This document shows, in pieces, positions 4,974 to 16,188 of a stretch of DNA of 40,184 nucleotides; the stretch's first letter is position 1, and every line of letters begins with the position of its first letter. The translations under genes and the position numbers were made by a program. The notes beneath the pieces were generated by a model. That model was not told the origin of the DNA. It searched no databases and was given only the letters and a program-made list of their open reading frames with translations. The stretch spans positions 1-40,184 of the forward strand of contig DSAS01000010.1 of the NCBI GenBank assembly GCA_011046365.1. The letters are read 5' to 3'. Source of the DNA: Fidelibacterota bacterium. GTDB lineage: Bacteria; Fidelibacterota; UBA2242.

Positions 4974-6200
4974 TCAAAACCATTCTAATATCTTATTAAA
5001 ATCGTAATTTTCCGGATCCGGCACATATGCCCTGGCGGATTCGTAATCTTTTTCTGTTATATATTGCAAAATATTTTGAACAACCGACCGGGATTTCTGA
5101 CTTTCGATGTCCACCAGCCGCGGCGGAATTTTACCATCAGCGTCTTCCAAATCATTCAGGAAAAGCGGCGCTGCGTCACCGGCATTGTTCACATAGACCA
5201 TACAGCCGCTGGCGCCCTCTTTGAAAAGTTTATAGACACCGTTGCCCAAAAGTGTACAATAAACAAGATCGTACCCGACGGGACTCACACAGCGTACTTC
5301 ATAGCCCAGCTCAATCGGTCGGGATTTAATGTTCAATCCGATCTTTTTATATTTAATATTCAGCAGGTCATTAAAAAGCTGAGCTTTGGAAATCTTGCCC
5401 AGCTCCGGATGCCCGTGATCGTCATAGGTAAAATTGATTCCCGACTTTTTGATTTCATCATCACTGAGAGCATGAAAAACGCCTTCCGAAATGATTGCGA
5501 CACCATAATTGACACCCATGATTTTACGTTTTATCATCGCAGAAATCACCAGATTGACAATGCGCTCGATGGTTATTTCAGTCTTATTGAACATCTCCGG
5601 AATGACGATCATCGGCAGATGGCAGGCGGAACCGACACCGAACGCCAGATGCCCGGCTGAACGTCCCATCGCAGCAATCACAAACCAGTTTTCGCTGGTG
5701 CGGGCATCCTCATAAATCGTGGATGCAATTTTCGCGCCGGCATCTTCCGCCGTGGTATAACCGAATGTCGGGGAGTGGTTGGGCAGCGGCAGATCGTTAT
5801 CAATCGTCTTAGGTACATGAATATTGGCGATGGGATAGCCCTTTTCCCGGAGAAATTTCGCCACCCGGTTGGCTGTGGACGCGGTATCGTCACCACCGAT
5901 TGTGACCAGCAATTCAATATTGTGCTCTTTGAATAGTGCCAGGTTGAAATTTTTCGCAAAGTCATCATCGGTCGGTTTGAAGCGGCTCATTTTGAGGTAG
6001 GAACCACCACGATTGAAAATGCTGTCGGCTTTTAAAAAGTCCAGCTCCTCAATCCGGGCATTTTCACGAAACAGACCGGTATAGCCGTGATGCAATCCGA
6101 TGACTTTCATACCGTTCCGGACAAAGGATTTGGTGATTGAGGCGACTACGGTATTGATGCCGGGCGCCGGTCCTCCTCCACAGAGTATTGCAACTGACAT
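4974..6200 (-). CDS. pfp: 6-phosphofructokinase, probably pyrophosphate-dependent
   Basis: This interconverts fructose 6-phosphate and fructose 1,6-bisphosphate. The fold signature is clear: GGGPAPG at the N-terminus, a GGDDT loop at 102-106, PKTIDND at 130-136 and MGRSAGHLA at 178-186. ATP-dependent enzymes have GGDGS and PGTIDND; Asp and Lys at the two discriminating positions are the established signature of pyrophosphate-dependent PFK. The reaction would then be reversible and serve both glycolysis and gluconeogenesis. Its 408 residues are within the PPi-type range. AAGGAGATAAC lies directly before the ATG at 6200. Upstream is a promoter-like TTGAAA-17-TAACTT overlapped by an inverted repeat. 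The phosphate-donor call is from residues, not measured. Confidence 0.9.
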   Translation of the reverse strand: MSVAILCGGGPAPGINTVVASITKSFVRNGMKVIGLHHGYTGLFRENARIEELDFLKADSIFNRGGSYLKMSRFKPTDDDFAKNFNLALFKEHNIELLVTIGGDDTASTANRVAKFLREKGYPIANIHVPKTIDNDLPLPNHSPTFGYTTAEDAGAKIASTIYEDARTSENWFVIAAMGRSAGHLAFGVGSACHLPMIVIPEMFNKTEITIERIVNLVISAMIKRKIMGVNYGVAIISEGVFHALSDDEIKKSGINFTYDDHGHPELGKISKAQLFNDLLNIKYKKIGLNIKSRPIELGYEVRCVSPVGYDLVYCTLLGNGVYKLFKEGASGCMVYVNNAGDAAPLFLNDLEDADGKIPPRLVDIESQKSRSVVQNILQYITEKDYESARAYVPDPENYDFNKILEWF

Positions 6201-6240
6201 GTTATCTCCTTTTATTCATAGTCTTTCATTATGCGCTCCG

Positions 6241-6274
6241 AAGTTAATCAATCGGTGATCAAATTTCAATTTGA
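6241..6274 (-). promoter_or_regulatory. Candidate pfk promoter with inverted repeat over the -35
   Basis: On the minus strand TTGAAA (6264-6269) and TAACTT (6241-6246) are 17 bases apart, upstream of pfk. TCAAATT-TC-AATTTGA (6259-6274), a 7-base inverted repeat, covers the -35 box, where a repressor could block polymerase. No specific regulator is recognised. Confidence 0.35.
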
Positions 6275-6370
6275 AAAGCACCGAAAATGATGCAATAAAG
6301 ACGCCCTGATCACATATGTTTTTTATCCCACTGCCTTAAGGTGGTATGTGACGATATAATCTGTCAGGAA

Positions 6371-6384
6371 GAATCACGTGATTC
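6371..6384. promoter_or_regulatory. Perfect 14-bp palindrome, possible operator
   Basis: GAATCACGTGATTC is a perfect palindrome in the gap between the ptb stop and the pfk start. The symmetry suits a dimeric regulator, but it lies about 170 bases upstream of pfk and only 46 bases after ptb, so its target is unclear. Confidence 0.3.
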
Positions 6385-6429
6385 AGTACACACCGCTTGC
6401 TTCGACAGTCATTCGATTAGTGATTACAA

Positions 6430-13769: not shown

Positions 13770-14480
13770 TCAAAATACATAGGGTTTTACCCTTTTCAGA
13801 ATTTTACGGGCTGCCGGTACATCCGGGTATATCGCCGACAGGGCTTTCCAGAAAACCGGACTGTGGTTTTTAATCCGGGTATGGAGCAGCTCATGCAGAA
13901 GGATATAATCAATCACCCTGTCTTCAAAGCGCATTAATTGCGCATTCAGATTGATATTATTTTGAATTGAACAGCTACCCCACCGGCTTTTCAGGTTTTT
14001 AATGAAGACACGGTTATAGTGAAATTGATACCGCTTAGCCAGTTCGGCAAGCCGGGCGGGTAAAAATTGCCGGGCTTCCAGACGATAAGCTTCAATAATA
14101 GCCTGTAAAATGAATCGCCGTGCGCTGTCGGCGTCGGCATTTAAACCGGCAGGCAGAAACACCCGGATTTCTCGGGCAGTAATCTGATATAGAAAAAAAT
14201 CCCGTTCAGTCGGATTGACGACCAATATATGCCGGCGGGTTTTAAAGTTACTATCAAATTGTGGTTGTTGCGCCTCTTCTATCCGGCGCTGTGATTTCTG
14301 CACCCAACCCAGATGCTCATCAAAAAATGTATAAGCCGTTTGCAACGGGATTCCCCTTGGCACGGCAACCCGCACCGACCGGCTGCTCTTGACCGCAATA
14401 TTCAACCGCCGGGCTTTCCGGCTCGAAGCAAATTCAACGCTACCGATTCCGGGATATTCTATATAAACACTTTTATTCAA
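13770..14480 (-). CDS. YgjP-type zinc metallopeptidase (DUF45/M48-like)
   Basis: The family carries a WSS1-like or YgjP zincin fold. Visible marks are the basic N-terminal strand region RKARRLNIAV...RVAVPRG, KSRWGSCS (164-171) and the zinc helix LLHELLHTRIKNHSPVFW with HELLH at 196-200. The 236 residues match. There is no signal peptide. The start is TTG at 14480, overlapping the stop of the preceding gene by 8 bases, so translation is probably coupled. The substrate is unknown; YgjP relatives are poorly characterised. Its place behind two transporters and an SOR-like gene does not explain its job. Confidence 0.85.
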   Translation of the reverse strand: MNKSVYIEYPGIGSVEFASSRKARRLNIAVKSSRSVRVAVPRGIPLQTAYTFFDEHLGWVQKSQRRIEEAQQPQFDSNFKTRRHILVVNPTERDFFLYQITAREIRVFLPAGLNADADSARRFILQAIIEAYRLEARQFLPARLAELAKRYQFHYNRVFIKNLKSRWGSCSIQNNINLNAQLMRFEDRVIDYILLHELLHTRIKNHSPVFWKALSAIYPDVPAARKILKRVKPYVF

Positions 14481-14838
14481 TTTCCAGCGAAACGGTCTGT
14501 CTGCCGTAGATGTTGCACCGGCATTCCACCGTGATTATATCTCCGTTTTTCAAATTAAAAATCTTATACTGTAACGTCAGTCCGCCGCCATTATCCTGAC
14601 TGCTGAAGCACTGTCTGATAATCTCTTTCCTATTGACCGATACCCAAATTTTTTCAATAAAATGGCGGTTAAAATCCTGCGAGTCATGCACAATTTTAAT
14701 AGTCAGCAGGCAGGCATCCCGGTCATAATCCAGCATCATTTCATCTGCCGGATGAGCCATTGGTACAATTGGCGCCAAGACAACAATGCCCACGATCAGG
14801 GCTACGATTTTTGGAAAAGCTTTTTTATTGAACGGCAT
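14473..14838 (-). CDS. Secreted desulfoferrodoxin/SOR-like domain protein with altered iron site
   Basis: A signal peptide (about 1-28, ending near VPMA) precedes a roughly 90-residue beta domain. VHDSQDFNRHFIEKIWVSVN followed by NGDIITVECRCNIYG resembles the superoxide reductase core, where HPxxxxHYIxWI and CNxHG supply the iron ligands. Here the two histidines of the first block and the cysteine of the second are kept, but the final His is Tyr (CNIY) and the usual N-terminal ligand His block is absent. The protein therefore probably lacks the normal Fe(His)4Cys centre and is unlikely to be a standard superoxide reductase. It is 21 bases after the APC permease. The homology is read by eye and needs profile confirmation. 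Confidence 0.6.
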   Translation of the reverse strand: MPFNKKAFPKIVALIVGIVVLAPIVPMAHPADEMMLDYDRDACLLTIKIVHDSQDFNRHFIEKIWVSVNRKEIIRQCFSSQDNGGGLTLQYKIFNLKNGDIITVECRCNIYGRQTVSLEIE

Positions 14839-14859: not shown

Positions 14860-16188
14860 CTACCGTAATCGGGATTGCCGGAATCGGAAATAGTAATACA
14901 TCGGCAGTCCGGTGGCAATTAGAATCGCCGCCGATAATACGCCACCCGCCGGAAAGGCGATAAAGGTACCGAAAATCAGATACAACTGCGACGCAATCGC
15001 AATAATCGCCATCGGCAGCCAGGCTGGCGACCTGAAAGTGGGCTTATAATCCTCCCGTTTCCGGAGGAAAAAGATTGCCCCGTAAATCAATCCATTCTGC
15101 AACAAATATGAGAGCGTAAAATATCCCAGGAGTCCTTCGATGCCACCGAAGAAAAGCAGCACAATCGCCAAACCCGATTGTAGCAGGATCGAATAATCGG
15201 GCGTCTGATAGCGCGGGTGAATATGACCAAAGCTTTTGAAGAAAAGTCCATCCCTTGCGATGGCATATTCGATGCGCGGCTGGACCATAATCAGGGCATT
15301 AACACAACCAATCATGCTGATGAATGCGGCGATCGCCAGGAATGCGCCGGCGATTTTGGCAAAAGCCGGCAGATAGAGAAAAGGATTTGCAAACTGACCA
15401 CTGGTGGCGATCAGATCGTCATAGGGAATAAATACACTCGTGGATAACGCAATCAGACTATAGATAAGGGTCACAATTCCCACAGAAATCAAAAGGCTGC
15501 GTGGTATAATTTTCGCCGGATTCTGCATCTCACCTGCCATATACAGCACATTGGTAAAACCGGCGTAAGACCAGATCGTACCGGCTACCCCGGCGACGAG
15601 CAGGGTAATGATACTGCGGTTGGCGGTAATTGCTTTATCCGGCATAAAAAACAGGTGTTCACTATTGAACAGACTTACACCGAGAATGCATAGTAAAATC
15701 AGCGGCGAGAGCTTGGCGATTGTCAAGATAATCTGAAGCCCGCCACCCTTTCGGACGCTGCGGTAATGAATATAGGTCAGAACAACGATCAGGAGCATCG
15801 CAAACAGCTTTGTGTACAGCGTCCCCTCCAGCGGTTCCCAGAAAATACTCAACGCCGATACGGCACTGAGGGCGATAATCGTGATACTCGGCGTATCGCT
15901 GGTCCAGAAAACAGTCCAGACGTAAAGAAATCCCAGCGCCGGACTGCCCGCCTTTTTTAAATATAAATAGCCAAATCCTTCCTCCGGATAGGCGGTTGCC
16001 ATTTCCGCTAAAATGAACAGCTGCGGCAGCCAGAGAATCCCGCCGATAAACCAGGCGATCACCGCCAGCCAGGGGCTGCCGGCTTCCCTGGCAACAATCG
16101 GCAGATTAATGAAAACACCAGACCCGATTACCGTCCCCAGAATCAGGGCAATCACATGCCAGATATTTAATTCCCGCTTTAGTCCCAT
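14860..16188 (-). CDS. APC-superfamily amino acid permease
   Basis: The 442-residue protein has about 12 hydrophobic segments. The first contains GTVIGSGVFINLP, the APC TM1 substrate-binding signature, and later blocks such as WSYAGFTNVLYMAGEMQNPAKIIPRSLL match the LAT or serine/threonine exchanger-like subgroup. It would import or exchange an amino acid across the inner membrane. It starts 13 bases after the upstream symporter stop with only a weak ribosome site (AAGCGG), so coupling is likely. The substrate cannot be assigned from sequence. Confidence 0.88.
   Translation of the reverse strand: MGLKRELNIWHVIALILGTVIGSGVFINLPIVAREAGSPWLAVIAWFIGGILWLPQLFILAEMATAYPEEGFGYLYLKKAGSPALGFLYVWTVFWTSDTPSITIIALSAVSALSIFWEPLEGTLYTKLFAMLLIVVLTYIHYRSVRKGGGLQIILTIAKLSPLILLCILGVSLFNSEHLFFMPDKAITANRSIITLLVAGVAGTIWSYAGFTNVLYMAGEMQNPAKIIPRSLLISVGIVTLIYSLIALSTSVFIPYDDLIATSGQFANPFLYLPAFAKIAGAFLAIAAFISMIGCVNALIMVQPRIEYAIARDGLFFKSFGHIHPRYQTPDYSILLQSGLAIVLLFFGGIEGLLGYFTLSYLLQNGLIYGAIFFLRKREDYKPTFRSPAWLPMAIIAIASQLYLIFGTFIAFPAGGVLSAAILIATGLPMYYYFRFRQSRLR

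Follow-up and report, generated by a model that had tools for sequence, protein, structure and literature searches.

The window analysed here is the whole 40,184-nucleotide stretch of Fidelibacterota contig DSAS01000010.1. On its minus strand, between an amino-acid permease gene and a metallopeptidase-domain gene, lies a short open reading frame (ORF). Its span is exactly the one that an earlier note, written from the letters alone, had given to an exported superoxide reductase (SOR)-like protein. The genes and the predicted mature domain are as follows.

14860–16188, minus strand: amino-acid permease (APC) gene, upstream of the SOR-like gene (PF13520, E = 1e-50); the association is not conserved.
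14473–14838, minus strand, stop codon included: gene for a predicted exported SOR-like protein of 121 amino acids (ORF call, orthologs and family alignment).
14476–14754, minus strand: mature domain of that protein, 93 amino acids beginning HPADE, a predicted seven-stranded beta sandwich of the SOR/SoxZ type (AlphaFold2, Foldseek).
13770–14480, minus strand: YgjP-like metallopeptidase-domain gene (PF01863, E = 2e-44).

The SOR-like ORF is a real, conserved gene. Two further genomes of the genus have orthologs that are 51–59% identical and share its start, its end and its gene order. Together with the remote relatives found in other phyla, this argues against a chance ORF. In all three genomes the order is SSS symporter, APC permease, SOR-like gene, YgjP-like metallopeptidase and PEPCK, where PEPCK was identified from sequence and the SSS, APC and YgjP neighbours by Pfam. 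The SOR-like and YgjP-like genes overlap by 8 bp in the window and by the same 8 bp in the ortholog L003, which suggests translational coupling of the pair; the two genes are probably co-transcribed. Promoter scans of the window did no better than shuffles, and matches to promoters or terminators were given no weight. The same genome encodes elsewhere a complete two-iron SOR that lacks a signal peptide (L001).

Searched alone, the window protein showed nothing significant in Pfam, NCBIfam or PDB sequences and did not match PF01880. PDB sequence searches with the window protein or with profiles returned chance matches only. A profile built from the three orthologs retrieved four relatives outside the phylum (E from 5e-14 to 3e-23), and enlarging the profile by those four brought in many more. 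The family was aligned as 29 and later as 32 sequences, which come from at least six phyla; Pfam and NCBIfam fail to recognise nearly all of the relatives. Two sets of weak matches were rejected as chance. Among the single-protein matches (L005–L008) and the three-sequence profile matches (L010, L011 and L013), those read lay in frames that were unrelated or overlapping, a histidine kinase and UvrB among them. A plasmid tblastn with the window protein and two approximate consensus sequences found nothing, and viral contigs held no relatives of the family.

Among 245 genomes of the phylum, the SOR-like gene is confined to the window's genus. The sister genus g7 has the SSS–APC–YgjP–PEPCK order intact without it, and none of the APC loci read outside the genus carries it. 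In the family tree, the window's genus clusters with a protein of another phylum (support 97/91). Together, the restriction to one genus, the g7 gene order and the tree grouping across phyla suggest that the genus acquired the gene laterally.

At the level of sequence and profile, the family is homologous to the SOR domain. The family profile aligned to the SOR profile in hhalign with a score of 36 (E = 1e-5), and 200 column-shuffled SOR profiles gave a mean of 11.4 and a maximum of 27.7, so the likeness is beyond chance. PF01880 was matched by 11 of 29 members (best 4.3e-5) and TIGR00332 by nine of 29 (best 6.6e-6); two members exceeded the Pfam cut-off for PF01880 (24.0 versus 22.2 bits). 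Weak matches to SoxZ were also seen, with SoxZ_true in 17 of 29 members and with PF08770 in nine of 29. These fell short of SoxZ membership, with a best E of 0.00097 over the 29 members and single members at 13–16 bits against a cut-off of 76. The AlphaFold2 models of the mature domain (pLDDT 81.5, pTM 0.74) and of the full-length protein (pLDDT 71), both built on three sequences, are seven-stranded beta sandwiches. In Foldseek, the top matches of the two models included SOR, with TM up to 0.67 (by query length), and structures of the SoxZ type, with TM up to 0.64; generic Ig/FnIII domains were mixed in and score about equally. The predicted strand order would bring residues 29, 51, 59, 108 and 111 to one pole of the sandwich.

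Every family member inspected begins with a hydrophobic leader. The leaders share their end point, which reads A|H in nearly all. In the window copy, the leader and the residue after it are positioned as follows.

14755–14838, minus strand: predicted Sec signal peptide, residues 1–28, MPFNKKAFPKIVALIVGIVVLAPIVPMA (from sequence; relatives' leaders end at the same point).
14752–14754, minus strand: His29, predicted mature residue 1 and proposed metal ligand, matching the SOR loop His (EKH) in position in three MAFFT alignments.

The leader and a small residue at −1 served to place the cleavage site. It is predicted to be A|HPA in the window copy, making His29 the first residue after it; the −3 residue there is Pro, and the orthologs read ALA|H and VNA|H. 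A His stands directly after the leader, nearly always following Ala, in 29 of 32 members, 20–22 residues ahead of the first loop His. By sequence and predicted cleavage, these 29 have the arrangement of histidine-brace copper proteins, a signal peptide followed by His as mature residue 1. When the 29-member set was aligned with 17 SORs (three untrimmed MAFFT alignments), all 27 of its N-terminal His, including His29, fell in the EKH His column. The EKH block is present in 17 of 17 aligned SORs; in the window protein its Glu-Lys is absent ahead of His29, and the predicted mature chain begins at the His. Signal-peptide cleavage appears to leave a SOR-type His ligand as residue 1. Three members, L080, L083 and L152, have Thr, Asn and Thr at this position and retain both loop His and the Cys. 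The N-terminal His is therefore not essential to every member.

The remaining candidate site residues lie in two blocks, HDSQDFNRHFI (residues 51–61) and CNIYG (residues 108–112).

14686–14688, minus strand: His51, first loop His, proposed ligand.
14662–14664, minus strand: His59, second loop His, proposed ligand, aligned with a SOR ligand (His75 of the genome's own SOR).
14515–14517, minus strand: Cys108, aligned with SOR Cys116 and proposed as the axial thiolate ligand.
14506–14508, minus strand: Tyr111, standing where SOR has the CxxH ligand that is lost here.

His51, His59, Cys108 and Gly112 occur without exception in the 32 members, and Cys108 is the sole conserved Cys among these sequences. 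Tyr91 (31/32), Gln81 (31/32) and Gln76 (30/32) are nearly so. The position of the SOR CxxH His is filled by F, Y, I, G, S, W, A or M and by His in 0 of 32, so that three His and the Cys are left of the four His and one Cys that bind iron in SOR. With this His absent from all 32 sequences and both loop His and the Cys invariant, the incompleteness of the site characterises the family as a whole and does not reflect decay. In the alignment with 17 SORs, His51 sits four columns from SOR His69; the inter-His loop is thus 2–3 residues longer than in SOR, and the site geometry may differ accordingly. The family signature is A|H...Hx7-8H[YF][IV]...C[NS]xxG without the last His, a simple pattern that can be used for finding and naming members.

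The family shares with SOR and desulfoferrodoxin centre II (PF01880, TIGR00332) the beta-sandwich homology, the loop His of the ...HYI block, the CNxxG Cys and the N-terminal His at the EKH position. It differs in its signal peptide, the missing Glu-Lys and CxxH His and the longer loop, and its QxF..Q and Y91 are absent from the compared SORs. Exported members of the SOR family are known: SORGOdb describes TAT-SORs with a twin-arginine signal and the active site kept (PMC3116461), whereas in the present family the leader is of the Sec type and the site is incomplete. Judged from sequence, the window protein belongs to the SOR/SoxZ superfamily, is exported and has the residue set His1/His/His/Cys; it is not a canonical SOR. 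Much of the interpretation in the earlier note stands with this, namely the two motif blocks with Tyr in place of the last SOR His, a SOR-like fold, a predicted export signal and an incomplete iron site. The note had named relatives that all keep the full ligand set as the outcome to count against it; the opposite is seen, as no family member keeps that set. Its idea of a repurposed protein, possibly binding a different metal, is likewise supported as far as the site might accommodate one. Its statement that the N-terminal His block is missing was wrong, as only the Glu-Lys of EKH has gone and the His would be retained as mature residue 1.

Gene neighbourhoods in other phyla point towards reactive oxygen species (ROS). 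A true SOR lies within 10 kb of the family gene in nine of 29 genomes, against 0.32 expected (P about 1e-11 if these are independent), and in five of eight lineages (P about 2e-7, a rough estimate). Neighbour types in these phyla include rubrerythrin, AhpC/TSA peroxiredoxin, MsrAB, Prismane/Hcp, a flavodiiron-type domain and Fur. In L158, L111 and L112, the family gene stands beside a true SOR, rubrerythrin/ferritin-like genes, an FMN reductase and Hcp. A peroxiredoxin gene is directly upstream in L157 and L155, and the L155 cluster additionally has rubrerythrin, desulfoferrodoxin and a flavodiiron-type protein. Peroxiredoxin is also nearby in L117, MsrAB in L113 and L122, and Fur, AhpC, rubrerythrin and a ferric-reductase-like membrane protein in L108. 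Most family genomes hold a separate full SOR. The window's genus has transporters, YgjP and PEPCK next to the gene instead of ROS genes. Because the genus lacks an oxidative-stress gene context, function there is something we infer by transfer; the copy in this unrelated operon may keep the ancestral function.

We consider it moderately likely that the family consists of exported SOR/SoxZ-fold metalloproteins with a His1/His/His/Cys site, serving extracytoplasmic oxidative-stress defence or metal handling. Each would be a small secreted protein, periplasmic or extracellular, of the SOR/SoxZ beta-sandwich superfamily. Signal peptidase would cut at A|H, so that the mature chain would start with a His at the position of the SOR flexible-loop His ligand. 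His1, His23, His31 and Cys80 (mature numbering) would form the site for a single redox metal; iron is probable and copper possible, and the free N-terminal amine may stand in for the lost fifth ligand. The role would most likely be extracytoplasmic oxidative-stress defence of anaerobes, through superoxide reduction or redox-metal buffering, alongside the cytoplasmic set of SOR, rubrerythrin and peroxiredoxin. This explanation is based on the reality of the gene, the SOR homology, the export signal, the ligand conservation and the linkage to SOR and ROS genes elsewhere; from these we infer metal binding, the identity of the metal, the geometry and the activity. A more specific version is tentative and on the unlikely side. 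In it, the free amine would replace the fifth ligand, giving a histidine brace within a SOR-type His/His/Cys site, with a mononuclear iron or copper centre of a new type and an extracytoplasmic anti-ROS role.

The main rival, which we regard as rather unlikely, is an exported carrier or scavenger of copper, iron or nickel that is not a redox enzyme. His1 and an internal His would form a histidine-brace-like chelator that delivers or sequesters metal, as in CopC and the DUF4198, DUF6702 and Ang domains. The prevalence of the mature N-terminal His (29/32) fits such a carrier, as does a ZIP transporter near the family gene in L158. In secreted N-terminal-His metalloproteins and histidine-brace proteins (CopC, LPMO, DUF4198, DUF6702, Ang-1/Ang-2), cleavage likewise uncovers, on a beta sandwich, a His1 that could act as a chelator, and a signal-strapping paper found four such secreted families to bind Cu or Ni (PMC12537917). 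The present family is outside those four and differs from them as a SOR homolog with an added SOR-type His/His/Cys set. The strictly invariant residues are this SOR-type set of two His and a Cys, not His1 alone, and the neighbours are ROS-detoxifying genes, not copper or nickel uptake systems. Both points speak against the carrier.

It is improbable that the protein is SoxZ-like, with a fold that has ceased to bind metal. In that case it would be a partner in assembly or a carrier module, and Cys108 would have a structural role or act as a thiol carrier. The weak profile matches noted above and the SoxZ structures in the Foldseek top list speak for this reading, and SoxZ (PF08770, TIGR04490) shares with the family the fold class and the lack of a full SOR site. 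However, the family keeps His/His/Cys and the N-terminal His and adjoins ROS genes. A pure scaffold would not need a triad that is invariant across at least six phyla, and neither SoxY nor any other sox gene was recognised in the family neighbourhoods read.

The earlier note had also proposed a ligand-binding partner for the adjoining transporters, here SSS and APC, an idea that we now hold to be very unlikely. In its favour, the APC gene immediately precedes the SOR-like gene in three of the genus's genomes. The synteny in g7, where the order lacks the gene, led us to reject a tie to these transporters. The gene is also missing from the APC loci read outside the genus, no transporter is common to the relatives' neighbourhoods among those read, and the neighbours in other phyla are oxidative-stress genes. 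Use of binding proteins is not known for SSS or APC transporters. A degenerate, non-functional SOR remnant would account for the loss of one of five SOR ligands and the Glu, but is hardly credible for a pattern fixed with invariant residues in 32 sequences from at least six phyla, most of whose genomes keep their full SOR separately.

If the metalloprotein reading is right, the family is an uncharacterised and almost unrecognised one that joins SOR chemistry to the secreted N-terminal-His metal proteins, and suggests that anaerobes may possess an extracytoplasmic counterpart of SOR. It would be a natural test of a SOR site without one His and the Glu and with a free amine on hand, and L080, L083 and L152 would offer a ready-made comparison for what His1 does. 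We found no paper on the family in open-access full text; an earlier description may exist elsewhere.

Some other arrangements were seen around the SOR-like genes. In L130, a stand-alone desulforedoxin gene (Dx, PF06397; 6404–6625, minus strand) lies upstream of the SOR-like gene (6072–6428, minus strand) and overlaps it. The pair resembles the two domains of desulfoferrodoxin encoded by separate genes, and related ORFs are found upstream in L116 and L125. A nitroreductase-family gene adjoins the SOR-like gene in two phyla (L155, 5387–5956, minus strand; L073, 948–1487, plus strand). The SOR-like genes of L155 and L157 are preceded by a 2-oxoacid oxidoreductase-like pair and the peroxiredoxin gene.
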